Shown here: piece by piece, positions 45,582-64,000 of the stretch
How positions within the stretch are numbered: position 1 is the stretch's first letter
Layout of the letters: each line of letters begins with the position of its first letter
Assembly (NCBI GenBank): GCA_963681505.1
Contig: OY811973.1
Span: forward strand, 7,558,857-7,622,856
DNA from: Eunapius fragilis
Taxonomy: Eukaryota; Porifera; Demospongiae; Spongillida; Spongillidae
DNA length: 64,000 nt
Direction of reading: 5' to 3'
The notes under the pieces: model-generated
What the model was told of the DNA's origin: nothing
The model's input: only the letters and a program-made list of their open reading frames with translations
Databases searched by the model: none
Program-made: the position numbers and the translations under genes

Positions 45582-46199
45582 TTACATCTCTGGTAGATTG
45601 GCAACATAATATGAAGATTTCTTCTCACCACGTACCAGGGTACAGCGACTGATAAACCTTCGAGGACTAATGATCTTATCGCGTTGATAAAATGTATCAC
45701 TCACTAAATATGGGTTTGACAATTTATCTTTCTCAGGTGTCTTAAACACCATCCAAGTTACATAAGCCAGTATTACATTTTGGAGGTTTCCAGAGCCACT
45801 TTTATGCTTGATGCATATTTGGAAGTAGAACCTCACAATCCCAAAGTAATGATGCAGTTCATTGCTGTCATTCCATACAAACATTGCTTGTATCAATGCA
45901 CCTCTATCAGTTGAATTATAATCAGATGAAAATAATTGTCCATTTACCCGGCACCTCCCAAATTTATCAATTCTTGGAAATACATGTACTTCATCGTTGA
46001 ACAAGTTGGTACAAAATAGTGTGATCTCCTGATAGAAACTATCATCAACTTTAATTTTAATCTTGCTGGGATGCAGCAATTCAATTGGCCAGTCTATAAC
46101 GTCACCACGATCAATTGCTCTATAATACTCAAACATGTCCTCCCTTATTTGGGTAAGTTCTTTCAAGTGTTTAAGTTCATTATACATTTCTGTCCACAC
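45582..46199 (-). pseudogene. CACTA/EnSpm-type transposase, C-terminal part
   Basis: A 205-codon minus-strand frame with 'FPRIDKFGRCRVNGQLFSSD', 'HHYFGIVRFYFQI' and the ending 'RRFISRCTLVRGEKKSSYYV' plus LPEM and a stop. I recognise the order FGRCR, a G(I/Q)V strand and the RFxxRC tail as the C-terminal region of animal EnSpm/CACTA-like transposases with DUF4218. It continues the segment at 46180-46743 after a frameshift or unrecognised short intron near 46190. Confidence 0.55.
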
Positions 46200-46743
46200 T
46201 AGTAAGTTCTATTAAAGCCTTAGACATAAATGTTTCATCCATTGGTGTTAGAGGATCAGTATAACAGTTAAAACAGAACTGCTGTATTATTTTGTTTAAT
46301 ATTCGTATTTCAATGTTTCTGTTACTGTTTGGAATGTCTGCAAGCACTCCATTCATACGCTCATACCCGAAACACCAGTACCCATGTAGGGGGCCATAAT
46401 CAGCAACAACATCAGGAAGGTGCAGTGCTAGATGGTAGTTAACTGAAACCTTCCACTTTCCATAGACCTTCTCAAATAGTTTGTGATGTTGGTAAAGCTT
46501 AGTACATATGTCATCTTGGAGTAATGACGGCTTGATAATAATCTCTACAATTTCACAGAGCAAGCAGAGACACTGATACTGGCTCACAGGTAGCAGCCCT
46601 GCAAAGTGTAGCGCAACCCCGCGTAGCACAACCTCAGTCTCAAACAGACTATAAACTTGATAATAGCGCAGAACACCAACACGCATACAATACACGCGAC
46701 TAACTGTTCTACTTACAACCAACCATTGTTCATTAATGCACAC
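46180..46743 (-). pseudogene. CACTA/EnSpm-type transposase, DUF4218-like part
   Basis: The minus strand reads 'LPVSQYQCLCLLCEIVEII', then 'VSVNYHLALHLPDVVADYGP', 'LHGYWCFGYERMNGVLADIP' and NSNRNIEIRI. The HLALHLPD...YGP...WCFxxER core is the DUF4218 signature. The catalytic N-terminal half of a transposase is absent: upstream, across a 50-bp gap, lies the unrelated integrase gene. Confidence 0.65.
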
Positions 46744-46792
46744 GGCACTATAGTTCTCGATAGTTCTGCCATCAGGCTGTAGCTAGTAGAGT

Positions 46793-48328
46793 TCAGCCGT
46801 TGCCATCGTTACACAGCTCCCTATCCAATGAAACTGTGTCCTCACAGTTTGTATAGGCGAGTACAGAATGAACAACTACGTGCCCATACCAATCTGGAAG
46901 ATGTCTGTTCCGAGTTGAACGACGCAACCGTTCTCCAGGTTCAGGTAGTTCTGTCTCAGCAGGCGGCTGTGGTGGCTGTGGGGGTGTGGGGGCTATAAGT
47001 AGAGGCGGGGGTACATGTTCCTCTACTGCTGGCCTCTGCTCTGGCCTCCTAGTTTCCACGTATAAATATTGCTCATCCTGTGCATTAGCCTGTGAACCCT
47101 GCGGTTCTTTGTTAATCTCCTCCTCCTCATCTGCTTCCTGTTCATCCTGTGGTGTTGCCTTCTCATCCTCGTCTCTTGATTCCTGCTCTCCATGAGGTGT
47201 TGCCTGCAAAAAAGGATTCAAACGATTGTAATGTACTATTAATCTTTTACATGGATGTGCCAGCCGTCGGATATCGTATGTGACTTCTCCCTTTTTGCGC
47301 AATATTTCATACAGTCCTTGCCATGGTTGATGAAATTTGGGAGACTTTTCTCTTGGAACAGCAGGGGTGTAGAGCCATACATGATCCCCCCTCCGAAAGA
47401 CACACTGTGTATTCTCTTTCTGATCGTACCCAGTCTTCTGATGCTGCATGCCTTTCTGTGCATGCTGTCTGACATACTGATACACCAGCTGGAACCTTTT
47501 TTTCAGATGGTCCACATATTTGACACTTTCCTGTGGGACCTGCTCAATACTAACTGGTAGATTAAACATTAAATGCTCCGAAAATACCACCTCCCTCCCG
47601 AACATCATCTCAAAAGGTGTTACCCCATTGGTCTCATGCACAGATGTACGATACGCGAACATCAATAATGGCAAGTGCACATCCCAGTCATGTTCCGCAT
47701 CACCAACAGCAGTGCTCAATAAATTTAACAGAGTTCTGTTAAATCGTTCGACTAAGCCATCCGATTGAGGGTGATATGCAGATGTACGAGTTTTTCGAAT
47801 TTGAAGAAGGTCACATTTGTTCTTAATGACCTTACTTTCAAATTTTCTACCTTGGTCTGAGTGCAATTGTTCAGGCACACCAATCCGACAAATAAATTCG
47901 TTCACCAAACATTTAGCTACAGTTATTGCCTCCATGTTAGGTATTGGGTAGGCTTCCGTCCATTTAGTAAAATAATCAGCAATAACAAGAACGTATTTAT
48001 TGCCTCTAGGGGTTTCAGGTAAAGGCCCCATGATATCCATCGCCACACTTTGCAGTGGTCGTTCTACAGGATCAAGCTGCAAGGGTGCACGTGATTTAGC
48101 AGGTGGAGGCTTCCTAGATGCACAGGACAGACAACCAGAACACCAAGCAGCTACATCTTTGCGTTGCCCTACCCAGTAAAAATGCTCGCGCGCCTTTTGA
48201 AGCAAACCGATCTGATTTAATGCATGATTTGTATGAACAAATCTCGTGATAAATCTTTTTTGGATTTGAGGCGTTTTTTCCCTCAAATCCAAAAAAGATT
48301 TAACACGAGATTTGTTCATACAAATCAT
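46793..48328 (-). CDS. Ty3-type integrase polyprotein fragment, uninterrupted frame
   Basis: A 511-codon open frame. The integrase core has the triad Asp98 (MDIMGP), Asp158 (HSDQGRKFES) and Glu194 (GLVERFNRTL), with 35 residues between the last two, as required. The upstream zinc-binding region keeps its cysteines (CSGCLSC, residues 63-69). The usual histidine side is replaced by residues encoded in the palindrome at 48222-48334. A GPY/F-like region ('KFHQPWQGLYEILRKKGEV') and an acidic, Pro-rich tail with RRSTRNRHLPDWYG follow. No reverse transcriptase or LTR adjoins it. An intact catalytic frame in otherwise decayed surroundings is notable. It may be a captured integrase or a truncated retrotransposon. 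Confidence 0.8.
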   Translation of the reverse strand: MICMNKSRVKSFLDLREKTPQIQKRFITRFVHTNHALNQIGLLQKAREHFYWVGQRKDVAAWCSGCLSCASRKPPPAKSRAPLQLDPVERPLQSVAMDIMGPLPETPRGNKYVLVIADYFTKWTEAYPIPNMEAITVAKCLVNEFICRIGVPEQLHSDQGRKFESKVIKNKCDLLQIRKTRTSAYHPQSDGLVERFNRTLLNLLSTAVGDAEHDWDVHLPLLMFAYRTSVHETNGVTPFEMMFGREVVFSEHLMFNLPVSIEQVPQESVKYVDHLKKRFQLVYQYVRQHAQKGMQHQKTGYDQKENTQCVFRRGDHVWLYTPAVPREKSPKFHQPWQGLYEILRKKGEVTYDIRRLAHPCKRLIVHYNRLNPFLQATPHGEQESRDEDEKATPQDEQEADEEEEINKEPQGSQANAQDEQYLYVETRRPEQRPAVEEHVPPPLLIAPTPPQPPQPPAETELPEPGERLRRSTRNRHLPDWYGHVVVHSVLAYTNCEDTVSLDRELCNDGNG

Positions 48329-48334
48329 GCATTA
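48222..48334. repeat. Long palindrome at the start of the integrase frame
   Basis: The arms 'tgatttgtatgaacaaatct' / 'agatttgttcatacaaatca', with 'ggatttgagg' / 'cctcaaatcc', pair over about 50 bp around 'cgtttttt'. It belongs to the AAATC-rich flank of the W element. Confidence 0.92.
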
Positions 48335-48849: not shown

Positions 48850-48893
48850 TCAGTCGCGCTTTTTGGTAGAAGCTTGCAAAGTTTCTTCATCCA
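48850..48893 (-). CDS. Interrupted host exon, 3' piece
   Basis: The minus strand reads the last codons of an exon up to TGA at 48850-48852. Deleting element X (with one CCA) and the MITE at 55101 (with one TGG) joins 55323-55458 and 55085-55100 to this piece. One frame then runs with '...APLDNVQDRDP', 'HAEDVDEETLQAS' and TKKRD before the stop. The acidic end and clean joining argue for real coding sequence. The protein is not recognised. It could be a host gene or an older transposon gene. Confidence 0.5.
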
Positions 48894-49314
48894 CACTGCG
48901 TGAGACTATATCGTATGCGGGTCCGCATAACGCACCTATATGTGTCAAAACTGGTCTGCGCGCGAAACGTATGCAGCCATACGTACGCGTCGTATGCTGA
49001 TTCCGCATAACACCCAAAATGGACACTTCGACAATACGAATGATATGCGGATACTCTGCATACTAGTCGATACCAATCCGCTTACTCCGCAAATTCCATA
49101 TACATGCATCTGCATACGAAAGCTGCCAGTCTCTGCATACGTCGACATATCAGTATACGCGTCCATATACCTACACCGTAAACTTATACATGTATAGCGG
49201 GAAACTTTGATTCAATTACAGTTACAGTTTCAATTAAAAAAACAAAAACAAATGAACATAGTTTCAGTTGGCAGGAGATAAGTCTCCACAATTTCCACAT
49301 TTAAGGACCAAATT

Positions 49315-50315
49315 TCAGACGTAGTTAGTTGGGCATCCTTCTGGTAAGTCTTTACATTCAGCATGAAACATCACCATCTTGGCACTTGTCGAAGTTTTCA
49401 GTAAAAGCACCAGCACTGATTGTGTAGCAAGCTGTAGTAAGTTGGAGAATCAACCATGACACACAAAGAAGAGCATTACCTTAGATTCAGGCGAGCACAA
49501 AAGTTTACGTCACTTTCGTCAGTTGTGTAGTAAATTCAGAGTCCTCCTACTCATTTGGCCTTACCACAGCCTGGCATTGGCTAAAAAGCGGTCAGAAAGA
49601 ATTCATACATGCAGATATCCATTGGACTTACCTTGCAAAAGAGCTTGAGGCTTTTTCTGTTGATAAGATTGGTTGTTACTAGGTCCCTCACCTTTGGCAA
49701 TGAGTCTCAATGTGATTGTTTTATTGACTCCTGACAGCTCCTGATAGTGACATGAGGTACATTATTTGTTGAATACTCATTACAACGTACTATGTGCGAT
49801 GGAGGAGGTGTATCCTTGTACAGCAAGATCCTTTTTCATGGCATTTGAAGGTTCTAACGTGTTCAATTTTGGCTCTGCAAAAAAAAATTAAAAAATTAAA
49901 AAAACATGTATATACGGGCGGTAGTACCTTAGTAACAACTCAAACAACACGCTGTGTCCATAGTACGTTCACTTGTCCTGGTTTGGTAAGTGATATCTAG
50001 AGTAACATGCATGTGTACATAGCACAACTGACAGCGACGTACCAGTAAATTCTTCGGAACAGCCATGGTACATTCGTTTGCGAGCGTTCTTCAACCATGG
50101 CCTTTGTCTGCAGCACTTGAAGCTCTTTATCCTGGATATGACTAATTCGTACGTAAGTTAGCGGAGCAAGTACAACAGAACCTGCAGTCAATTAAAAATC
50201 CGATTTGCCTGCAATTTGGTTGACTTACAGAGGTCTGTTTTATTAACGCGAGTTTACAGTCCCAGTAGACTTACCTTTGTTTCCGTTTCGTGGTTGCTTT
50301 AATGTTTTCTAGCAT
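49315..50315 (-). CDS. Seven-exon minus-strand gene inside X, unrecognised
   Basis: Exons, all GT-AG and in consistent phase: 50275-50315 (ATG), 50043-50131, 49791-49874, 49692-49730, 49632-49656, 49565-49580 and 49315-49431 (TGA). Together they total 411 bp, 136 residues. The protein starts MLENIKATTKRKQ and has a basic, Cys-containing stretch ('KCCRQRPWLKNARKRMYHGC'). It later reads 'VNKTITLRLIAKE' and ends 'MVMFHAECKDLPEGCPTNYV'. The last exon's first half is hydrophobic (SVLVLLL). I recognise no family. The very short exons and an alternative second-exon frame (DKELQVLQTKAMVEERS) make details uncertain. It starts 34 bp from an NRF1-type site shared with the plus-strand gene. Confidence 0.45.
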
Positions 50316-50348
50316 CCTGATGCTCAGTCCGCCTTTTTCAGAATAAAG

Positions 50349-50360
50349 TGCGCATGCGCG
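50349..50360. promoter_or_regulatory. NRF1-type palindrome in a bidirectional promoter
   Basis: TGCGCATGCGCG matches the NRF1 consensus (YGCGCAYGCGCR). It lies between divergent start codons at 50315 (minus) and 50497 (plus). NRF1 sites mark short bidirectional promoters of housekeeping genes across metazoans. The position supports both gene models. Confidence 0.65.
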
Positions 50361-50496
50361 ATTAAAAATAAAATAATATAATAAGTTAGTAACTCGGACT
50401 GTGATTAGCCGCTGGATCAAGCTGCTTTCTGCGCACAAAGTACTACTTAATCACGTCTGAAGAGCCTGCAGCGGTTCAGCGATTATCCCTGCCACT

Positions 50497-51409
50497 ATGT
50501 CGGAGTACACCGAATGTAAGTGTGTGGAGCATTAATTAGGAGAGGCGTAAGCTTAGAATGTGTGTGGAACGAATAAAAAGCATGTATGTGCATATGTGGA
50601 GCAGAAAGTGGGTTTGTAGCAACATGTGGGAGTGTGCCTAAATAGTCACATGTCTCTACGTGATAGATACCTGACCTTGTACCTTGCTCTGTAGTAAGGG
50701 GTGCCCAGACTTACAGCACATTAGTCTCTCAGGCTACAAGGTGACAGAGGCAGGTTGCTGGCCCTCTCTAGGAGATGTAGCCATCTCTCAACGTCAGCTA
50801 CTGTGCCAAGGTGAGTGACAGTGAGAGGGGGTTCTGTGCCAATGTGCATGGCTTCCAGTGTAGAGGGACTCCGGAGGTACTTTTGAATGAATGGTTGGAT
50901 AATTTGTTTATAATACTCGTTCCTTAACCCATGCCTCTCCTCTTACCCATGCCCCATTCATCCACATGCCTCCCCTTTTTCCCATACCCCAACAGATTAG
51001 GGTCTTGAGCATATAGGAGTTAATGGAAAATATCTTGTATCCATCAGTCTGCAAGGTTAAGGTATGCTGAGGTGTGTGTTCATGTGGGTGGGTGGGTGTG
51101 CATGTGTGTGCATATGTGCGTGTATGTGGGTGGGTGTGCATCCATGTTGGTGTGCATGTGGGTGTGTCTGTGTGTGCTTTTGTGTGTACATGTGTGTGTG
51201 CATGTGTGTGTACATGTGTGCATGCATGTGTGTGTTGTGTGTACATGTTAGAAGTCAAGTTGATTTCTTCCCTTGTGTTGGATGATGTGTGTGTGCACAT
51301 GTGTGAATTTTGAGAGGTATGTTTGCCCTTGGAATGTCTCTAAATGGATTGGTGAAATGTGTACCTTTTTGACCAGATGCCTTGATGGCAATTGTGTGTG
51401 TGTGTGTGT

Positions 51410-51450
<41 letters not shown>

Positions 51451-51583
51451 CATGTCATGGAAAGCTCATGTGTCCAGCCCTTCAGGCATCTTAACACCGG
51501 ACCTTATCCTCCATTGGCCCCCGACATGCTCAGCTTGTGTTGTTGACATCACAGTGAAGTGGACCTGGGTGGACATGTCCTAG
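50497..51583 (+). CDS. Plus-strand gene inside X, unrecognised
   Basis: Exons 50497-50515 (ATG, GTAAGT donor), 50733-50810 (GTGAGT donor) and 51486-51583 (TAG) join in phase to 195 bp, 64 residues. The protein begins MSEYTECYKVTEAGCWPSLG, continues 'DVAISQRQLLCQ' and ends 'CSACVVDITVKWTWVDMS'. Donors of the first two exons are strong. A long (GT)n tract fills the second intron. I do not recognise it. A weak donor in the third exon could instead splice to 52051, giving a longer protein. Confidence 0.45.
51389..51448. repeat. (GT)n microsatellite
   Basis: An almost pure GT run of about 60 bp inside an intron of the plus-strand gene in X. GT-rich imperfect sequence also fills 51070-51245. Confidence 0.92.
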
Positions 51584-52050
51584 GAACCGGACCCCATGGG
51601 AGAGATACAGGGTGTGCACTAACTGGGAGGTAAGTACGCAGATAGTGGGGATAATTTTTTTTTGTTTGCTTGTGAACTAGAGGGTTGTGATGTATCACAG
51701 AATAGTGAACCAGAGGGTTATCACACAGAATTTCATTGAGTGGTATGGAGAAGGGGAAGGGCCACCTCCCCACATAGGTGGGGTGTGTGATCAGTCTGGA
51801 TGGAGATGGAGGAGAGAGGGGGGAATGGGAGGTCAAACCTAGTGACCTTATTAATGAACTGCAATGTTGTAATGATGTTATAGGATGGTGTGTTGCAGTA
51901 GTATGCATGTACATGTCTGTATGTATGTCTGCTGTGCTGCATTTCCACTTACAAAGATTGCAGACAGCTTGCCTATAGCTTACCAGGGATGATGTTCGAT
52001 GCTATAACAATGAAGGGATGTGGAAAATGTTTTCATCCTTCTATTTTCAG

Positions 52051-52228
52051 GAGCATGGAAGTGGCAAGATGTACACACCTCACTGATGCTGCACTGGCCA
52101 ATGTATGTGTCCAGTTTGGGGTAGCCACACCCCTCCCCAATGACCACGCCCATTACTGTGATTGCAGTCACTGTGTGAAGGACCACCTCCCAACACAGAT
52201 TCCCAGCCTAGACTGTCATGGTGCTTGA
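52051..52228 (+). CDS. Possible terminal exon inside X
   Basis: Opens after 'ctattttcag' and runs to TGA at 52228. It encodes MEVARCTHLTDAALANVCVQ and then a His/Cys-rich end 'HAHYCDCSHCVKDHLPTQIP'. HLTDAALAN resembles one leucine-rich repeat of the cysteine-containing type, and the Cys/His cluster could bind metal. It needs a preceding exon in phase 2, which I can supply only with a weak donor near 51556. Confidence 0.4.
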
Positions 52229-53044
52229 CTGTTGTGTCATTATATGTGTGTTGTATGGCCACATGACATGTTTGTACATGTAGTTACTTGCCATCAGTGT
52301 ACAGTGAAAAGCATCCCTCGCCTTACTGTTCAGGGTGTAGGGCAAACTTATTGAAAGTTATTTATAACTTCTCATCTCTGAGTCATACGTTCATGAGCTA
52401 AATTGTAGGATATGGTAACCATGTTTCATATTCTACTGAACAAAACTACATCACATGCCAGCGCATAAATTATATATTTGTAGGACTATTCGAAACAACA
52501 GAGGACACTGCAGTGTTGCTGCGATCCACTTAAGATGAAAGGAATCGTCGAGCTCGATAGTATGGGATCGACATATCGACGACTCGTCGGCGGCAACACT
52601 GGGACACTGACGGCTCAACAACCTACGCTCTTACGTTTAAACAATGACGTCGACAATGCATAATCCCTTACATCATCTTTATACAAAGGTCGGGGCGTGA
52701 TAACAGTGACAAAAAGTTTAGCGTACAACATCCCCTGTATTTCTCATACAAGGTATACTATAACTGATGTAATCGCAAAATACTGCATGTACAAAGCATA
52801 AAGTATTTGTATCAATCTGCGACTGAACATGGAACGAAATGTACACACACGTAAAATTAAACATCAAATTATACACACAAATACACATCAATCTGTTGCA
52901 TGCGCCTTGCTAGGATCATGTGTGCGTTGTTGTGAAAGTGGTGCATGAGGAAAATGACAAAAGTCCGAATCGACAATAATAGTGTGATCGTAACATTCAG
53001 AGACAGCCTCACTGGTCACTATGTGGAGTTAGAAATAAGTTAAA
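52229..53044. other. Interior of X, nothing recognised
   Basis: Unique-looking sequence with scattered CpG. No exon with both splice sites could be supported. Confidence 0.4.
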
Positions 53045-54475
53045 AACCATGAAACAGACACGACAACCACACAAGCTCAACTCACCCCAACCCTACACAC
53101 ACTATCAGCTCATCACAGAGAAGACCTCACCCAATGGACAATACCAGCCGTCGAATGGCCAGCTTCATATTCTAATTAGAAAGTGTCCAGACCTGAATGG
53201 GAGCACACAAACCATGGAACAGACATGACAACCACACAAGCTCAACTCACCCCAACCTACACACACTATCAGCTCATCACAGAGAACACCTCACCCAATG
53301 GACAATACCAGCCGTCGAATGGCCAGCTTCATATTCTAATAAGAAAGTGTCCAGACCTGAATGGGAGCACACAAACCATGGAACAGACACGACAACCGCA
53401 CAAGCTCAACTCACCCCAACCTACACACACTATCAGCTCATCACAGAGAACACCTCACCCAATGGACAATACCAGCCGTCAAATGGCCAGCTTCATATTC
53501 TAATTAGAAAGTGTCCAGACCTGAATGGGAGCACACAAACCATGGAACAGACATGACAACCACACAAGCTCAACTCACCCCAACCTACACACACTATCAG
53601 CTCATCACAGAGAACACCTCACCCAATGGACAATACCAGCCGTCGAATGGCCAGCTTCATATTCTAATAAGAAAGTGTCCAGACCTGAATGGGAGCACAC
53701 AAACCATGGAACAGACACGACAACCGCACAAGCTCAACTCACCCCAACCTACACACACTATCAGCTCATCACAGAGAACACCTCACCCAATGGACAATAC
53801 CAGCCGTCGAATGGCCAGCTTCATATTCTAATTAGAAAGTGTCCAGACCTGAATGGGAGCACACAAACCATGGAACAGACATGACAACCACACAAGCTCA
53901 ACTCACCCCAACCTACACACACTATCAGCTCATCACAGAGAACACCTCACCCAATGGACAATACCAGCCGTCGAATGGCCAGCTTCATATTCTAATAAGA
54001 AAGTGTCCAGACTTGAATGGGAGCACACAAACCATGGAACAGACATGACAACCACACAAGCTCAACTCACCCCAACCTACACACACTATCAGCTCATCAC
54101 AGAGAACACCTCACCCAATGGACAATACCAGCCGTCGAATGACCAGCTTCATATTCTAATTAGAAAGTGTCCAGACCTGAATGGGAGCACACAAACCATG
54201 GAACAGACATGACAACCACACAAGCTCAACTCACCCCAACCTACACACACTATCAGCTCATCACAGAGAACACCTCACCCAATGGACAATACCAGCCGTC
54301 GAATGGCCAGCTTCATATTCTAATTAGAAAGTGTCCAGACCTGAATGGGAGCACACAAACCATGGAACAGACATGACAACCACACAAGCTCAACTCACCC
54401 CAACCTACACACACTATCAGCTCATCACAGAGAACACCTCACCCAATGGACAATGCCAGCCATCCAATGGCCATC
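53045..54475. repeat. 164-bp tandem array, partly dimeric, about 8.7 copies
   Basis: The unit has 'ccagacctgaatgggagcac', 'acaagctcaactcaccccaa' and 'gtcgaatggccagcttcata'. Matching frames recur every 328 bp. Over the first three pairs, two variants alternate ('aattagaaag' with 'catgacaaccaca', 'aataagaaag' with 'cacgacaaccgca'), making a 328-bp higher-order unit. Later copies are all of the first type. The open frames in it are by-products. Confidence 0.93.
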
Positions 54476-54839
54476 TAGATATTAAACTAATAACTCACGT
54501 CATTCGTTATAGCACCTATTAATAACTCTGAACATATCACTGGTTTAGCATTAAGGTAACGCATTGGGGATGCAGGTTGGCGGAACTAGGGGCCACAAGA
54601 GACCAGTGCGCCCCCCCCCTCCCCCACACCACACACACACACACACACACACTTACTTTCTTACTGCTTGCGATGATTATGGCGCACATCCATACGGTAA
54701 TACCCCCCGACTGGAAAGGAAGGAGATTTTTCTTCCATCTCCGGCGCTTCTCTGCTTGATATTTACTAATTAGAGTGCCGCTTAATTGCATTTATTAACC
54801 TCGGCCCAACTTAACGTAGGTACTTGTATATTCCTATTA
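54476..54839. other. Interior of X with (CA)n run
   Basis: A C/G-rich patch and a (CA)n run at about 54630-54652. Nothing else was recognised before the right subterminal zone. Confidence 0.5.
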
Positions 54840-55084
54840 CTGCGCACTATTGTGGGTTTATACTGCACACGCGCGTTTCCGAGGGGGGGTTGATACGCGC
54901 CGAATACTTGTGTAATACTAAACCCCCCTTCATATCCATCTGCATACTGCTCATGGTATGTGTATATCTCGATACGAGTCAGGATATTGGTCTGCATACG
55001 CGCATGTCTGCATACCTATCTGCATACGTTAACGTGGGCAGACCTCTGCAATCTCTGCATACGGTACTATGTCACGCAGTGCCA

Positions 55085-55100
55085 CATCCTCTGCATGTGG
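55085..55100 (-). other. Short stretch of interrupted host exon
   Basis: Sixteen bases between X and the CACTG-type MITE. On the minus strand they supply the codons for HAED that connect the two larger exon pieces. Confidence 0.5.
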
Positions 55101-55319
55101 CACTGCATGAAAGTTTGGATTTACAATATATTTACTACTCATCAAATGTGGTGCAATTATGTATGTAAATGTGGTGTATGTGACATTTCCGCTATTAATA
55201 GTAAATGAACGCTTTATATTTACTACAGTGTTGATGTCACATATACCATATTTACTAACACATTAGCACCACATTTGATCAGTAGTAAATACATTGTAAA
55301 TCCAAAGTATCATGCAGTG
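55101..55319. mobile_element. CACTG-type palindromic MITE, TSD TGG
   Basis: Ends CACTGCATGA and the complement of CACTGCATGA. Long arms follow, carrying 'tttggatttacaat', 'atttactact' and 'tcaaatgtggtgc'. TGG flanks both sides (55098-55100 and 55320-55322). CACT termini with a 3-bp duplication fit a CACTA-mobilised MITE. It lies in the same interrupted exon as X. Confidence 0.85.
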
Positions 55320-55322
55320 TGG

Positions 55323-55458
55323 ATCCCTATCTTGTACGTTGTCTAGTGGTGCCAGCTTGACAGCAGCTTCAGCTTTTTTTATTCCTTCTGTATCTTGTGG
55401 TAGTACGTCTCCTTTGTGCAAGGCCTCTTTGACTGCTTTGTCGCGTGCAGCCAGCAGA
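55323..55458 (-). CDS. Interrupted host exon, 5' piece
   Basis: The minus strand is open throughout: 'AARDKAVKEALHKGDVLPQD', then 'KKAEAAVKLAPLDNVQ'. The Lys/Glu/Ala-rich helical composition looks like genuine protein. It is cut upstream by element Z at 55459 and downstream by the MITE at 55319. It joins in frame with 55085-55100 and 48850-48893 when the insertions are removed. Confidence 0.5.
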
Positions 55459-56836
55459 CACTGCGCGAAGGCATACTGTATGCGGCGTTGTATATTGCAT
55501 TGATATTACACGAAACTGGTCTGCAATCGTCGCGTATGCAGTTTTAGGTACGACAGGAATGCAGACTCCCGATAACTGCGGATACGGATACATTGTATAT
55601 ACGTATGATATCAGGTCTGCATACGACCTCTGTATATCAATCAGTATACGTTTCATGACCGTATACTCTACTCTTGTAACGTTTTGGCATACGTTTGATG
55701 TCTGTATGCAGAGTTTTGGTATACGAGTCATTATCGTAGCATATCCCGATCTGCATTCTGCTACTATATCCATTCCCAATAACCAGTATTAACATGAGTT
55801 GCAAACTTTATATAATGGAATTACAACGACATGTATAAACAGTACGAAATTCTGCTTTCTATACTTCTTTCCTCCACCATCCATGCAGCTTTGCATCCAT
55901 TCGGTTCTGGAGTTGAGGAATGTGCGCGTCAAGTCAGTAGCCGAGGTATAAACACCCATGACTTACTGGAAGCAACATAAGCGCTGTGTACATAGAGTGC
56001 GCATAGCAAGTTTGTCAGCGGGTAGTACTTGCCATTTCTAGGGCAGGTTCGATCCTTTGTTTAGTATAGTGGAGCAGTGGTTTTATGCTGTGCTTGCTGT
56101 CGGCTTTCTGTATTAAAGAACATGCTATGGTAAATGTCAAAACAGTACACATTTTCCAACGTACATGTCAATGAGTTTACTTGCCAAGCGTACATTCGAT
56201 GTCTGTTTTCAGCGGTGTACTTCTATTGTGCTATTTATTGTAAAGAACACGGCATTGTAAAGACTCTACCTTTTAATGTTTTCTTCGTAAATCGATTTAC
56301 CTGGTTTGAGTTTAAAAGAACACTGACACACGTTCAACACTTACTACGATCCCTGCACAAGTGAATTCCACCGTAGAAAATCCACACAGCAGCGAGTTCA
56401 TTTTTTTTGACACGCGAATAACTATGGAAGATGAAATGCATGGCCAAATTGAGCATCATTACACAACCATAATGACCACTTACCTTCGTTGATCTCTCTG
56501 CCTAGCTAGAGAGACATCTACTTTTCATACTTCCTCGCCCCTAAGCGCCAAAATACACGTGACACGACTAACGATTACTTTTAATAACCTCCAATCGAAG
56601 CCCACCTGAGGTTCTAAGCCCTATGGATATGAAAGGTTTTCTGATCAGATCATTGATATATGTGTGTATGTGCTTTTGCTAGCGGCCTGCAAACAATTTC
56701 AATGGAACTTTTTTTTACACCAGGGCATCAAGACAACTGGCTGTCACGGTCATGCAAGTATTAAGCTGTGATGACTTTGCTCCGTCGATGAGCGCACCAT
56801 GTATGTCACACCCACGTCGAGAGCTGTGCTGATGAT
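55459..56836. mobile_element. CACTA-like element Z, left part (split by Y)
   Basis: Begins CACTGCGCGAAGGCATACTG after AGA. It has the GCATACG-rich subterminal zone (to about 55790) and then sequence nearly identical to 56837-58204. It breaks at 'gctgtgctgatgat', where Y begins. The right part resumes at 62968 and runs past the window end, so its own terminus and target duplication cannot be seen. Confidence 0.8.
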
Positions 56837-58204
56837 CACTGCGCGAAGGCATACCGTATGCGGCGTTGTATATTGCATTGATATTACACGAAACTGGTCT
56901 GCAATCGTCGCGTATGCAGTTTTAGGTACGATTGGAATGCAGACTCCCGATATAACTCCGGATACGGATACATTGTATATACGTATGATATCAGGTCTGC
57001 ATACGACCTCTGTATATCAATCAGTATACGTTTCATGACCGTATACTGACTCTTGTAACGTTTCAGCATACGTTTGATGTCTACATGCAGAGTTTCGGTA
57101 TACGAGTGGTTATCGTAGCATATCCCGATCTACATTCGGCTACTATATCCATTCCCAATAACCAGTAATAACATGAGTTGCAAACTTTATATAATGGAAT
57201 TACAACGACATGAATAAGCAGTACGAAATTCTGCTTCTATACTTCTTTCCTCCACCATCCATGCAGCTTTGCATCCATTCGATCCTGGAGTTGAGGTAAT
57301 GTGCGCGTCAAGTCAGTAGCCGCGGATAAACATCCATGACTTACTGGAAGCAACAGAAGCGCTGTGTACATAGAGTGCGCATAGCAAGTTCTTCAGCGGG
57401 TAGTACTTGCCATTTCTAGGGCAGGTTCGATCCTTTGTTTAGTGAGCAGTGGTATTATGCTGTGCTTGCTGTCGGCTTTCTGTATTAAAGAACACGCTAC
57501 GGTAAATGTCAAAACGGTACACATTTTCCAACGTACATGTCAATGAGTTTACTTGCAAAAATTCGATTTCTGTCTTCAAGCGGTGTACTAGTACTTCTAT
57601 TGTGCTATTTATTGTAAAGAACACGGCATTGTAAAGACTCTACCTTTTTATGTTTTCATCGTAAATCGATTTGCCTGGTTTGAGTTTAAAAGAATACTGT
57701 CACACGTTCAACACTTACTACGATCCCTGCACAAGTGAATTCCACCGTAGAATTTCCACGCAGCAGCGAGTTCTTTTTTTTTTTGACACGCGAATAACTA
57801 CGGAAGATGAAACGCATGGCCAAATTGAGCATCATTACACAACCATAATGACCACTTACCTTCGTTGATCTCTCTGCCTACCTTACTGCCTCGCCCCTAA
57901 GCGCCAAAATACACGTGACGCGACTAACGATTACTTTTAACAACCTCCAATCGAAGACCACCTGAGGTTCTAAGCCCGAAATGTTTTCTGCGTAATGCAT
58001 GATCAGATCATTGATGTATGTGTGTATATGCTTTTTCTAGCGGCCTACAAACAATTTCAATAGGCCTGGAACTTTTTTTTTTACACCAGGGCGTCAAGAC
58101 AACTGGCTGTCACGGTCATGCAGTGTTAAGCTGTGATTGAGTTTCCTCCGTCGATGAGCGCACCATGTATGTCACACCCACGTCGAGAGCTGTGCTGATG
58201 ATGT

Positions 58205-58318
58205 GGTCGGAGAGCATCAGTGTACAGGGGCTGATATCTAAGAGGAGGATTGCAAGTCAGACCCGCGATATGAAAAGCAGGGGGGAAGGTGCTGTACGCC
58301 TCAGGCCCGATACGCATA

Positions 58319-58358
<40 letters not shown>

Positions 58359-58992
58359 GCCTAGCGGAAGAGGGGGAGGAACCTTATATGAAATGGTGGG
58401 GGGGTAATGGGGTAGCAACCCCACCCCCCTGTATCCGCCCATGGTGTACTGTACTCCCCCACAATAATGTATGTCACTGATTTTTGACTGATTTTTGACT
58501 GCAGCAGCTTCTTCTAAAAAACCACATGCTGTCACCATTAGTCTCCTGGCCTAGCCGGTCTCAGCTAAACAGTTAAACGTAATGCCCACCCACCGCCCCA
58601 AATCTGCACTTCATTTTCTATTGTATGTGTGTGCATATCCTTAGGTATTAAATACATGTTTCTGTTTGTTGAATACAACAAATGTGACAGAAACTTAGCT
58701 TCCTCCCAAATGCAAGGGCATAGACTAGTTTTTAAGGGTAGGGGGGCTACATGTAATTAATTTTGCGTGCGCGTGGGTTTTGTTTGTGAATACGATGTTG
58801 TTGCTCTCCTGGCTTGCTACACAGAAACCAAACAGTTGTACACTTCCAACTCAATCAGCAATACAAGTGTGTAACGCAATTGTAAAACGTGCGTGTGACT
58901 CTATTGAATAGCGTGCACTTTACAATTGATTATTAACAACTTCAGAAATTTTAATAACTCAACTGCAAAAATCTGGGGGGTCTAAAGCCCCC

Positions 58993-59026
<34 letters not shown>

Positions 59027-59200
59027 CCACCTTGTCTATTGTTTTTGGTGTTTGGTGAATTTATTAGGCAGATTCCAGTTGAATTTTCATTGACAGCGAG
59101 ACAGGACAACACAACAAGATGTTGAGTTCAAGGCACAAAATGGAACTGTGTGTGTCTTTTGTAATGTGATGTGGGAGTGGTTTTTCTGTAGGTTTTTTCC
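58205..59200. repeat. Segment shared by Y and Z
   Basis: Matches 62968-64000 at most positions ('gatatctaa', 'gtcctcctggcctagccgg'-like blocks, 'gacagcgagacaggacaac', 'gggagtggtttttctgtagg'). The two copies differ in length of G and C homopolymers and by a few indels, including a longer MITE end in the Z copy. Confidence 0.9.
58321..58357. repeat. Poly-G run
   Basis: Thirty-seven consecutive G. Similar poly-C runs occur at about 58997-59023 and 63709-63733. Such runs are typical of the MITE ends in this window and are also error-prone in assemblies. Confidence 0.9.
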
Positions 59201-59423
59201 AGGAGCCGTGTGAGGGCCCACCCCTCCAAGTGCATACACATGGCTCGTTGTGTGTTGTGTTGTAATGCTATGTCTATGTGGTTATGTGTGAGCGTGCAAA
59301 ATGAATTTGAACCAATCTGATGATTGACAGGGAGGTGGGGGCATCACGTGGTGCAGCACATGGGGAGGGAGGTACCATGAGTTTCATGCACCCATGATGT
59401 GTCAAGCGTGTGAGTACACTTAC

Positions 59424-59508
59424 CTTGTTTGTTGTATAGTGTTCATGTGTAATATGCAAACGCATCCACAGACAGTTGTGCACAGAGTCTGCATCTCACA
59501 GGTGACTA
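59424..59508 (-). CDS. Possible exon inside Y
   Basis: Minus strand, ends at a strong GTAAGT donor (59423). An open frame reads 'MQTLCTTVCGCVCILHMNTI'. The acceptor is ambiguous among three AGs. It could follow the exon at 60831-61049 in phase. Support is weak. Confidence 0.25.
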
Positions 59509-59552
59509 TGAGTACATTTGTTTCAGCTGGAAAGAAACAATGTACAGAAATC

Positions 59553-59577
59553 GTAACACACACACGCACACACACAT

Positions 59578-59624
<47 letters not shown>
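59553..59624. repeat. (CA)n microsatellite
   Basis: CA run of about 70 bp, interrupted twice, inside Y. Confidence 0.92.
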
Positions 59625-59625
<1 letters not shown>

Positions 59626-60830
59626 CTATGTATCCCACCCTTAGGGCTCATCAACATCTGGTTTGGATTTTCAGGCCCATCTTGTCATCAAGGAACACCA
59701 TTAAATATATATTAGTACACCATTGTAGATTCAATTTGTTAAACTCACACTGTCACGACTTATATATGTTCACTTGTCACATGGTGCATGGGAACCAGAG
59801 ACCTAAAACCAATGCTTTCAGTCTGCCACTGCATAGTCCAAACTATGCAACACTAGTACTAATGTCATCCACTCTGACCCGGCTTGTGTAGTGCATGATG
59901 AAATCATGCTGGAACCTAGCTTTAATTTAGAATCGGTGTTGTAAGGATTGTTGTTGTGCCCCGCCCACATTATAATACACTTGTTTTAACGCTTATAGTT
60001 GACTTAAGTGCAACAGAAATCGACTCAGCGGGGTACATTTCACTGTATTCTGAAAAAGATAAGATTTGGTCATGCTAAAATATCGCCGAGATCGGAATTA
60101 GGGCTCACATATAAACTGCAATTGAGCACTGCATGCAATAACTGAAGCTGCAGTACACAGAAATTAATTCCGTTATTGCTTTCCAATGTATTCTGTACCT
60201 GCATTTATAATTATTTACTGCCGATTACCCGGCCTATAAGATAGTATCATCTCTGATCTGTCAATGACCTCGGTCATTATAATATTTAAAATCAGTCATT
60301 GAGCACTTGGTTGAAAGTATTCAAAACTACCAGCGTCGTACCACGTCATTTCAACTTTGGCTTTGTGCAACAGATATGTTCAGCGGGTGACTCACTGACA
60401 TCTGTTCGATGATATCTTTGGACATCAATTTCATTGTTATTGTGCCCCGCCTACACTGATATAGCCGAATTTTTACGTGCAATACAACCCAGGGATATAC
60501 TCCATTGTGTAACGAATGTTTTAAAGGCACAGAATAACTGTGGTCGTTCTGTTCAGATTATAATAATATACATAAAATCATATTACAATTCATAGGCATA
60601 TATCATAATGTATAATTAAAAGATTGAGTTTTATGTGTGAGATCCTTTAAGATAATCCTATGTCCCCTAAATATTTGGTTTACTTTAGTAATGATACATC
60701 GATATTTAATTTTTGCAGTCCACTATAAGTATTTGCTGTAAGAAGTTTGAGGTATTATTGTGTGTATACAAACTGAGCATAGTCATGTGTAAAGATGGAG
60801 TGGGCGGGGGTGGGGATAGGGGGCACTTAC
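59625..60830. other. Interior of Y, nothing recognised
   Basis: AT-rich unique-looking sequence. 'ttgttgtgccccgcccaca' near 59950 and 'gttattgtgccccgcctaca' near 60437 are a short internal repeat. No exon was supported. Confidence 0.4.
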
Positions 60831-61505
60831 AGTTTTTTTCTTATTATAATGAAGTGGTAAGAGAATCATAGCAATGGCTTCTGTACGTTTGATTCTCCGA
60901 GCTTCCATTGTGCGAGAAAAATGTAAAGAATTATGAGCCACAGTCTCATTCCAGATCAGAACAGAAACCTGTACTAATGAATGCATGTGCTTATATGCTT
61001 CCAGATTGTTCCATATATGGCTTGTTGACATGTAGTTGCAGCTGTGTTTCTAAGGTTTGAGGTAAGTATGAATATGATTAGGTGTGCATAGTGTGTGTGT
61101 GTGTGTGCGTGTGTGTGTGTGTAGTTTGCGAGTGATTGAGACAGCCATAGGATTCTTCAAATAACAGTTTGGAACAGGAATATACAAAGCAATTCAGCAT
61201 TCAAATAAAATGTATCAACAAAAGTCCATTGGTTGCAGCTGTGAGGTGCTCTATCTGCTCTTATCAGCAGCTCAATTGTTCCAGGGTCTGCATAAACTGA
61301 TCATATGACTCAAATTACACCTTCCAAAAAGAAGCATCCATAAAGACTAGAGTTTATTTTTAAAAAACCATCCCAGTGGCACATTCCACCCCCACCCCCC
61401 CCGCCCGCCAAGTCTCCTGCTGCCTCCGGCCAAGCAGGATTAAGAAGTATTAGTCTTACCTGAAAAGCAAACTTCTCAGCTTTGCTCCCAGACCAGATCA
61501 CAATG
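60831..61505 (-). CDS. Two-exon gene segment inside Y, unrecognised
   Basis: On the minus strand, an exon ending at 61460 (CAG before GTAAGA) encodes 'LPIVIWSGSKAEKFAFQ'. It joins in phase 0 to 61049-60831, which opens at 'ccttag' and ends before GTAAGT. That exon encodes 73 residues including 'SHIWNNLEAYKHMHSLVQVS', 'LIWNETVAHNSLHFSRTMEA' and 'IKRTEAIAMILLPLHY'. Strong donors, an open 219-bp exon and protein-like composition favour real coding sequence. I do not recognise the family. The 5' boundary of the first exon is not fixed. Confidence 0.5.
61092..61121. repeat. (GT)n microsatellite
   Basis: Short GT run with one GC interruption, upstream (minus sense) of the exon at 60831-61049. Confidence 0.85.
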
Positions 61506-61598
61506 GGTAAGCTTAGAGCCCTTCTTCATAGACCCTAACTGGCAGAGTTATGCCCATCCCATACACCATTTGTACTTCTGTCAAAAATACCTTGTCAT

Positions 61599-61863
61599 GG
61601 GTGTCCCCAGCTTTTCTGGAAGGGGGCGCCATTTGACAGCCGCGTATATGTTGTCCGCTTTCCGCCGATTGAACCAGTGGGGGGGGAGGGGGTGCTGTCT
61701 GCTTTCGGCCAATTCAACCAGTGGGGGGGGGGGGGGGGGGGTTCAACCAGTAAAGTGGGGGTGCACATGTACGTAAACAAGGGGGAGGGGGGCACTATTA
61801 CGAGGGGGGGCTCCATTACAAGGGGGGGGGGGGGGGGCGCCATTCACCCCTGGGGACGCCCAT
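61599..61863. mobile_element. G-rich MITE with ATGGGYGTCCCCAG ends
   Basis: Begins ATGGGTGTCCCCAG and ends with the complement of ATGGGCGTCCCCAG. 'gggggcgccatt' occurs near both ends and poly-G fills the interior. Flanks 'cttgtc' and 'cttgttc' are a possible imperfect duplication. It lies in an intron of the Y gene segment. Confidence 0.6.
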
Positions 61864-61895
61864 GCTTGTTCACCCATGTTTTAAATTCAACTCAC

Positions 61896-62094
61896 TTTGA
61901 ATATGCCCGGCGTGTATGAAAAGCATGTTTTCTAGGATAGAGAAAATCCACACAAGAAACATGTGCACATGCAACTGAGCAACTGACTGTCAGTTGTGTT
62001 CCATCATGATTTGTGTGTTGAATGAAGTGTGTATTATAACCTGAATCAATTCCATCTCTGATGTGGGGTCATCAATATCTAGCGAGGCTGCCAT
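61896..62094 (-). CDS. Possible 5' exons of the Y gene
   Basis: A minus-strand ATG at 62094 opens 18 codons (MAASLDIDDPTSEMELIQ) to a gttata donor at 62040. A 36-bp exon, 61931-61896, follows ('atcctag' acceptor, GTGAGT donor). Phases agree between these two but not with the exon ending at 61460, so at least one junction is missing or wrong. The initiator region looks like a genuine N-terminus. Confidence 0.35.
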
Positions 62095-62844
62095 GTGTGG
62101 AGAGAATACATACGTACATGTAACAGACAGTACACATACCCATAGCACACAATGGTACCTTAAAGTTTATCTGAGCAGATACGAAAGACTGTCAGTGTAT
62201 ACATGATCCGAGTATGTGTGCTACATGTGCACGTGTGTTGTGTGTGCACATGCATGTGTGTGAATGCGTGCGAGTGTATGTATGTGTGTGTTCAAAAAGT
62301 ATAATAAACATCTAACCCGCAAATCAACCATCTCCTATGTGTTAGTTCCCATTTCCGCGTCCAGCAACCTGTTATGAGACATCGTTTTAGTTCGGGAATA
62401 GGTGCGTGCCGCGGCTATATTATCTCTGGCATTTCTCTGCTATGTCTGTAAGGCAAGTTACCCCATCGGCATGCATGCTACGGGGAAGTACTCCATGCAT
62501 GCTGTTAGATAGAATTGACTAACCCCTCCAAACTTCAAAGTGCTTCCCCCTCGGCTTCCCCTCTGCGGTCTATATTAAACTAAGTGCTAGTCACGTGATA
62601 CAGACAATAATTTAAAAAAAAGATTGTTATGAGTGATGCCTGCTGACCAAGCCACCAAGGATTAAAGCTACAGTAGCTCCATCACAGCTGTCCGCAGACA
62701 AGCGCGTTGCTTCTTTATGAATGCTGCACAAGAAGCTTATACAGGCATGCGTATTTTCACTTGTTAAATCGATCCGCATTTCCCCTTCTTACTGCTCCGC
62801 ATTCGGCCCCTCTAAATACTGCACAGCATTCTGCTCTTCATACT
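62095..62844. other. Interior of Y upstream of the exons
   Basis: Contains GT-rich imperfect sequence (62200-62290) and unique sequence. If the ATG at 62094 is real, its promoter should lie here, but I see no diagnostic element. Confidence 0.4.
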
Positions 62845-62967
62845 AGTCTTCTCACATACGAGTCCCCATATGTGTCCGGATACTAGAGCTTCTGCATACG
62901 TATCCGTATATGACTTAGTATACAGTGTCTGCGCTATACTCTGTATACGGTATACTTCCGCGCAGTG

Positions 62968-64000
62968 GATGTGGTCGGGGAGCGTCAGTGTACAGGGGCT
63001 GATATCTAAAAGGAGGATTGCAGGTCAGACCGATATGAACAGCAGGGGGGAGGGTGCTGTACGCTTCAGGCCCGATACACATAGAGGGGGGGAGGAGGGT
63101 GCTGCATGGGAGGAACCTTATATGAAATGGTTGGGAGGGGGGGGTTGCAACCCCACCCCCCTGTATCCGCCCATGGTGTACTATACTCCCCCACAATAAT
63201 GTATGTCACTGATTTGTGACTGCAGCGGCTTCTTCTAAAAAAAGCACATGCTGTCATCATATGTCTCTTGGCCTAGCCGGCCTCAGTTAAACAGTTAAAC
63301 GTAATGCCCGCCCCCCGCCCCAAATCTGCACTTCATTTTCTGTTGTATGTGCGTGTGTGTGCCCTTAGGTATTATACATGTTTCTGTTTGTTGAGTGCAA
63401 CAAATTGGACAGAAACTTAGCTCCCTCCCAAATGCAAGGGCATAGACTAGTTTTAAGAGTAGGGGGCTATATGTGGTTACTTTTGCGTGCGCGTGGGTTT
63501 TGTTTGTGTTGTTGCTCTCCTGGCTTGCTACACAGAAACCAAACAGTTGTACACTTTCAACTCGATCAGCAATACGTGTGTAACGCAATTGTAATATGTG
63601 CGTGCGACTCTATTGAATAGCGCGCACTTTACAATTGATTATTAACAACTTCAGAAATTTTAATAGCTCAACTGCAAAAATCTGGGGGGGGGCTAAAGCC
63701 CCCCTGCCCCCCCCCCCCCCCCCCCCCCCCCCCTTGTCTACGCCCTTGCAATGTGATTGGCTGGACAGAATGTGATGCTGCCACATGCTTGTTGGGGTTT
63801 AATGAGCGCATAGGGATTGTCAGTCTAAACTTTTCTGTGTTGGTGTTTGGTGAATTTTTTAGGCAGATTCCAGTTGAATGTGCATTGACAGCGAGACAGG
63901 ACAACATAGCAAGATATTGAACTGGAGAGTTCAAGGCACAAAATGGAACTGTGTGTGTCTTTTGTAATGTGATGTGGGAGTGGTTTTTCTGTAGGTTTTT
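62968..64000. mobile_element. CACTA-like element Z, right part (continues past the window)
   Basis: Starts with the duplicated 'gat' and 'gtggtcgg', the exact continuation of the sequence broken at 56836, as shown by the uninterrupted copy in Y at 58190-58230. It matches 58205-59200 and is cut by the window end. Confidence 0.85.
63434..63749. mobile_element. MITE with GCAAGGGC ends and poly-C interior
   Basis: Ends GCAAGGGCATAGACTAG and the complement of GCAAGGGCGTAGACAAG, flanked by AAT on both sides. The copy in Y (from about 58709) has lost its right end. It contains a 25-bp poly-C run. A 3-bp duplication would suit PIF/Harbinger or CACTA, but the motif is short. Confidence 0.6.

Follow-up and report, generated by a model that had tools for sequence, protein, structure and literature searches.

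A 3 bp target-site duplication (TSD) is typical of the CACTA superfamily of DNA transposons. The two 6 kb elements described here, X and Y, lie in a stretch of 64,000 nucleotides of the genome of the freshwater sponge Eunapius fragilis (assembly GCA_963681505.1, contig OY811973.1, positions 7,558,857–7,622,856), called the window below and numbered from its first letter. They are very probably non-autonomous CACTA transposons (En/Spm, Tnp2-type), served by relatives that encode Transposase_21 and with non-coding interiors. Plant CACTA/En-Spm elements (Tnp2, Transposase_21) resemble them in having CACT-type inverted ends, subterminal words and a 3 bp TSD, and Transposase_21 is found in the partners of the sponge elements. 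The sponge ends, however, read CACTGCG rather than CACTA, and a coiled-coil-like open reading frame (ORF) of the partners is a candidate for an accessory protein in the place of TnpA.

Five-nucleotide TSDs are given for CACTA elements of rice and maize in PMC8903248. The Pack-CACTA elements of Arabidopsis and other plants described there are likewise non-autonomous and have CACTA ends; X and Y differ from the rice and maize elements in TSD length (3 rather than 5 nt), and no coding host gene was found inside them as far as the searches reached. Among animals, SmTRC1 of Schistosoma is a CACTA superfamily element with a Transposase_21 domain and is flanked by a 2 bp direct repeat in seven of 14 copies; its relatives in T. 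castaneum and A. aegypti also have 2 bp repeats, and the A. aegypti end begins with CCC (PMC1636069). CCC ends and 2 bp repeats are likewise reported in PMC4298943. The sponge elements, with CACTGCG ends and a 3 bp TSD, are therefore not TRC-like on these descriptions.

The animal analogues of Pack elements are the Pack-TIRs. PMC8277862 counts 370 of them across 100 animal genomes, of which 323 belong to hAT or TcMariner; neither 'sponge' nor 'Amphimedon' occurs in its main text. These are defined by filler that is not transposable element sequence and has a parental copy, which was not found for X or Y. No description of CACTA elements in a sponge was found, judging by titles and the beginnings of abstracts; subscription papers and Repbase reports lie outside this survey, which is no proof of absence.

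Ends, target sites and copies of X and Y

X (48894–55081, + strand, 6188 bp) begins with CACTGCGTGAGAC and ends with GTCACGCAGTG; its flanks carry CCA at 48891–48893 and again at 55082–55084. Y (56837–62967, + strand, 6131 bp), recognized by its inverted ends, TSD and sibling copies, lies between copies of GAT at 56834–56836 and 62968–62970. The heptamer CACTGCG stands at all four termini, at 48894 and 56837 on the + strand and at 55075–55081 and 62961–62967 on the − strand. By itself it is common in the window (six found against 4.0 expected, a count reached by 21 of 100 shuffles). The word GCATACG is enriched (19 against 3.5 expected; 0 of 100 shuffles), and the terminal 2 × 350 bp of X and of Y each hold 12 words of the set GCATAC/GTATGC/GTATAC, where 500 single-base shuffles gave a mean of 0.51 and a maximum of 3. 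An earlier note on this DNA had described CACTA-like elements with CACTGCG inverted ends, 3 bp duplications and dense subterminal GCATACG words, and had seen no transposase inside them; all of this was confirmed. X and Y are real CACTA-type mobile elements that lack their own transposase.

A search of the whole assembly (218,937,333 bases in 24 contigs) with the terminus pattern, at one mismatch or fewer, returned 200 matches, for 100 of which positions were given, and the reversed control returned none. X and Y thus belong to a multicopy family, as the earlier note had supposed. Separately, the places listed in left-end searches number 12 of X type and 40 of Y type. Ends were examined at 23 loci, namely X and L011–L015, which contain the X interior; L016–L021, which have only an X-like left end; L030, L058, L056 and L057; and seven Y-type elements (Y, its sister Y', four siblings and C3:10011211). 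Both ends are present at 13 loci (X, L012, L013, L014, L030, L058 and all seven Y-type elements), and in all 13 the 3 bp direct repeats match: CCA, CCA, AAG, TCT, CCA, GGG, GAT, AGA, CTG, ATA, ATA, AGT and CCG. CACTGCG is found at both ends of X, Y, L030, the Y-ended element that carries a transposase and the both-ended siblings, L058 being the exception. Six copies have the X interior, four of them with both ends and a 3 bp TSD; divergence among the six is roughly even along the interior, except in a repeat-rich part near 52500–53100. The Y interior (60000–62300) has at least 83 matching stretches in the genome (best 40 of 852 candidates scored).

The insertion of Y can be read directly from the window. 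At 55459, after an AGA at 55456–55458, a further left terminus opens a third element; from there to 56836 (+ strand) the left 1366 bp of Y are repeated at 91% identity, and the sequence to the right of Y, from 62968, repeats the next part of Y at 85–94%. Since the two flanks repeat consecutive parts of Y, Y landed within a sister copy, Y', which continues beyond the window and stops at C3:7638154, again next to AGA. Y and the sequence that it entered are thus sister copies, and the target can be read in its empty form within Y itself, at 58171–58231 (GCTGATGATGTGGTCGG). The occupied site reads GCTGATGAT / Y / GATGTGGTCGG, compared with the uninterrupted form at about 58200. Between X and Y', an inverted repeat at 55101–55319 (86 bp arms, 87% complementary) is possibly another small element of inverted-repeat type.

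It is scarcely conceivable that segmental duplication or satellite-like repetition, and not transposition, gave rise to the copies. Two places, C1:15194717 and C1:15212036, do lie only 17 kb apart, each with a Transposase_21 match about 8 kb to its left, as duplicated segments might. Against this, the target repeats match at every both-ended copy while mostly differing in sequence from one copy to another, and Y has an exact empty site.

Relatives that encode a transposase

Matches to Transposase_21 in the genome number at least 150 (best 150 of 305 candidates scored), which, with the 200 termini that fit one pattern, documents a CACTA population in a freshwater sponge. X and Y are best read as non-autonomous because transposase-bearing partners with shared ends sit in the same genome. 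Locus L030 (C3:5913400–5922399) contains a 7962 bp element with the TSD CCA, the minisatellite of X and its right end (89% over 462 bp). The 879 aa stop-to-stop frame of this element matches Transposase_21 (E=1.3e-17); its matches to DUF4218 and Plavaka do not reach the cut-off. Locus L058 (C16:3359400–3369100) contains an 8959 bp element with GGG on either side and an 864 aa stop-to-stop frame that matches Transposase_21, and it carries the right 2040 bp of X at 97.3% identity. Both elements share the right end of X and have a related left end. Over 860 codons the two transposases differ with dN (non-synonymous) 0.086 and dS (synonymous) 0.539, a dN/dS of 0.16; these two long open frames thus differ mostly at silent sites, and the frame has been under constraint.

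A partner with Y-type ends lies at C3:10011211–10031969 (L046/L051). Its left end is 92% identical to that of Y over 807 bp and its right end 85% over 317 bp, with the TSD CCG, and it encodes the same transposase, broken by one stop codon into pieces of 234 and 468 aa. The same interval holds ORFs that we take to be those of a Gypsy retrotransposon.

Beside the transposase of L030 and of L058, on the opposite strand, there is a coiled-coil-like ORF (L030:6582–6992, + strand; L058:1923–2288, − strand), with 60% amino acid identity between the two and a dN/dS of 0.27 over 117 codons. From its sequence, it is a candidate for an accessory transposition protein.

These relationships are best explained by the following scheme. 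Full-length relatives at other genomic sites would supply a Transposase_21 protein, which would recognize the CACTGCG termini together with the subterminal GCATACG/GTATGC words; the element would then be excised and inserted with a 3 bp staggered cut. The interiors of X and Y would be non-coding ballast.

Several observations weigh against this account. Ten of the 23 loci (L011, L015, L016–L021, L056 and L057) lack a matching second end, and in L015, L016 and L021 there is a stray end motif with a non-matching flank. The left end of L058 is CACCGCG rather than CACTGCG, and its GGG duplication is weak evidence, because the flanks are G-rich. Between X and L030/L058, the left termini agree at no more than 70–82% of positions over 82–193 bp, so the transposase that would act on X is a guess. 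The two ends of C3:10011211–10031969 were paired by type and TSD, with C3:10012001–10024499 between them not read. At L056 only the last 339 bp of X are shared, and a left end was not found in 8.4 kb. We infer that these relatives mobilize X and Y and have kept their function, and likewise the binding of the words and the geometry of the cut; movement itself was not observed.

L056 was considered as a cargo-bearing element and rejected for want of that left end, and only a right end is claimed for it. This lone X end (L056:8088–8426, C2:5105087–5105425) is 100% identical to the last 339 bp of X and ends in CGCAGTG. The same 339 bp boundary recurs at C23:189892–190230 (99%), about 5.9 kb from a Transposase_21 match with an 824 aa frame. 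Given this proximity, the 339 bp end may belong to another element family rather than being a fragment. Similar-looking RING-finger ORFs occur at L030:8529–8999 (+ strand), outside the L030 element, and at L056:4138–4857 (+ strand), near the X end; of their matches, only zf-C3HC4 in L030 passes its cut-off.

Coding capacity of the interiors

The earlier note had seen, in 49315–52228 of X and 60831–62094 of Y, chains of exons with GT-AG boundaries and consistent phase, and had taken them as gene models. The longest chain that runs from ATG to stop and keeps its phase across GT-AG introns was compared with that in dinucleotide shuffles, 100 of the sequence as it stands and 300 after removal of simple repeats. 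Plus-strand chains do no better than chance in X (reached by 35/100 and 75/300 shuffles) or in Y (19/100 and 137/300), and neither does the − strand chain of 60831–62094 (51/100 and 163/300). The − strand chains are weakly above chance in 49315–52228 (1/100 and 10/300), in the whole X interior (0/100 and 7/300) and in the whole Y interior (0/100 and 3/300). We read this minus-strand excess, without proof, as leftover low-complexity sequence. In the positive control, the transposase gene, the chain is 2880 nt long and was reached by 0/100 shuffles. The chains thus lose their value as evidence of genes, and 'gene models' built from GT-AG boundaries should be checked against shuffled sequence where the DNA is rich in repeats.

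It is very improbable that X and Y encode an unrecognized transposase of their own, spliced from such chains. The counts for the two interiors with simple repeats cut speak for it, as the longest minus-strand chains exceed most shuffles. However, some of the long minus-strand frames run through TG/CA- and G-rich sequence, many of the compared frames of X and of Y are shifted or interrupted by stops in their siblings, and there are Transposase_21 partners that have the same ends. Of the two options in the earlier note, the non-autonomous one therefore stands, by way of the Transposase_21 partners, and the unrecognized transposase finds no support, since a recognizable one is carried by related elements.

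Searches for protein domains and for a host gene bear on whether the interiors, although non-autonomous, carry genes. In six-frame Pfam searches (E≤1) the X interior gave only a sub-threshold match to LBP_BPI_CETP (E=0.53), and the Y interior only Septin (E=0.015), below its cut-off. When frames were compared between sibling copies, non-synonymous changes exceeded synonymous ones in most of the frames listed; for X this comparison covers L013 and L014. To the eye, two short X frames of 59 and 38 aa resemble leucine-rich repeats (LRRs), and for one of them the PDB gave a sub-threshold match to an LRR receptor (E=0.22). Both remain whole in L011 and L012, the siblings nearest to X. In L013 the 59 aa frame is shifted and the 38 aa frame almost complete; in L014 and L015 the former is likewise shifted and the latter shortened. 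Peptide searches with these two frames gave matches in X copies only.

A parental host gene for either interior was not found in DNA, peptide, Pfam or PDB searches. For Y, DNA searches with 60000–62300 and 58203–59540 (best 40 of 852 and best 40 of 357 candidates scored) returned, among the listed matches that could be placed, element copies and a repeat on C9; not every match was traced. For X, DNA searches of the segment peculiar to it cover 50460–51060 and 51460–53043. The absence of a host gene is incomplete as a result, because candidates were scored in part and 50301–50459 and 51061–51459 were left out. With chains at or near chance, the two best frames decaying in diverged siblings, one sub-threshold Pfam match per interior and no host parent found, the proposal that the elements carry genes is not upheld.

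Block structure and origin of X and Y

X consists of three blocks. The left block, with the left terminus (48894–50300, + strand), recurs with changed ends at L017 (92%) and L019 (86–89%). The idea that L019 marks the exact edge of captured sequence was considered and rejected, as weak similarity runs on past X position 1407. The middle segment, with the LRR-like frames (50301–52857, + strand), is common to the six X copies and peculiar to them; in the parts searched, the only other listed matches are one of 161 bp (84%, C4) and those to a small insert described below. The right block (52858–55081, + strand) is shared with transposase-bearing elements. Its first part, 52858–53041, matches C12:8353369 at 90%, about 2.3 kb from a Transposase_21 match, and 53044–55081 is 97.3% identical to L058. 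This latter part includes a minisatellite of 8.7 units of 164 bp (53044–54473, + strand), whose array length varies between copies. The best explanation is that X is a chimera, in which the right 2.2 kb are as in L058-like elements and the left 4 kb are other sequence where those elements have their transposase.

Within the middle segment there is a 91 bp miniature inverted-repeat transposable element (MITE) at 52511–52601 (CAGTGTTGC...GCAACACTG), with the 8 bp duplication GGACACTG; we take it to be hAT-like from the length of this duplication and the end motif. It is present in X, L011 and L012, and the same site is without it in L013–L015; related stretches occur at 17 other places in the genome. 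As three of the six X copies, at different loci, have the MITE and the other three lack it, X multiplied after the MITE had arrived.

The left block of Y (56837–59540, + strand) matches the left of C3:10011211–10031969 in Y positions 1–795 and in window positions 58203–59005 and 59045–59540, and the right terminal block of Y (62656–62967, + strand) agrees with that element's right end at 85% identity. Y is best explained as a derivative that has the same kind of ends as this transposase element. The kinship of the non-autonomous derivatives with their partners is directly readable in this sponge population, which is therefore a usable system for how non-autonomous CACTA elements form and move in an early-branching animal. 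In the Y interior, an 817 bp block (60675–61491) matches, at 84% and with abrupt edges, a C9 repeat that spans at least about 2.5 kb and is present at L048 (C9:2982800–2985300) and L049 (C9:7962000–7964500), 99% identical and in opposite orientation, with a third match at C9:9586830. No CACTA end was found in the 2.5 kb of this repeat that was read.

This block is one of the observations that would fit X, and perhaps Y, being Pack-CACTA elements, with the X-only segment of 2.5 kb a captured fragment of an LRR-like host gene. In the same direction point the position of 50301–52857 between blocks common to other elements, the two LRR-like frames, intact in L011 and L012, and the sub-threshold match to an LRR receptor. 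But a host copy was not found, 50460–51060 and 51460–53043 matching only the six X copies and short stretches, two exon peptides match X copies alone, and both the decay of the two frames in more distant copies and the excess of non-synonymous changes speak against it, as do chains at chance on the + strand and Pfam matches that stay sub-threshold. Such an origin is unlikely. It is similarly unlikely that the segment is an old capture of an LRR-type host gene, which would make X a Pack-CACTA-like element of a sponge, born when a template switch joined the right end of an autonomous CACTA element to foreign sequence. Non-autonomous elements with non-coding interiors remain the preferred reading for both X and Y.

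To the left of X, the window contains at 45585–46782 (− strand) the remnant of another Tnp2-type transposase; over 131 aa it is 27% identical to the L058 protein (E=2e-12), and it has a sub-threshold match to DUF4218. It adjoins an ORF at 46796–48331 (− strand) that resembles a retroelement integrase.

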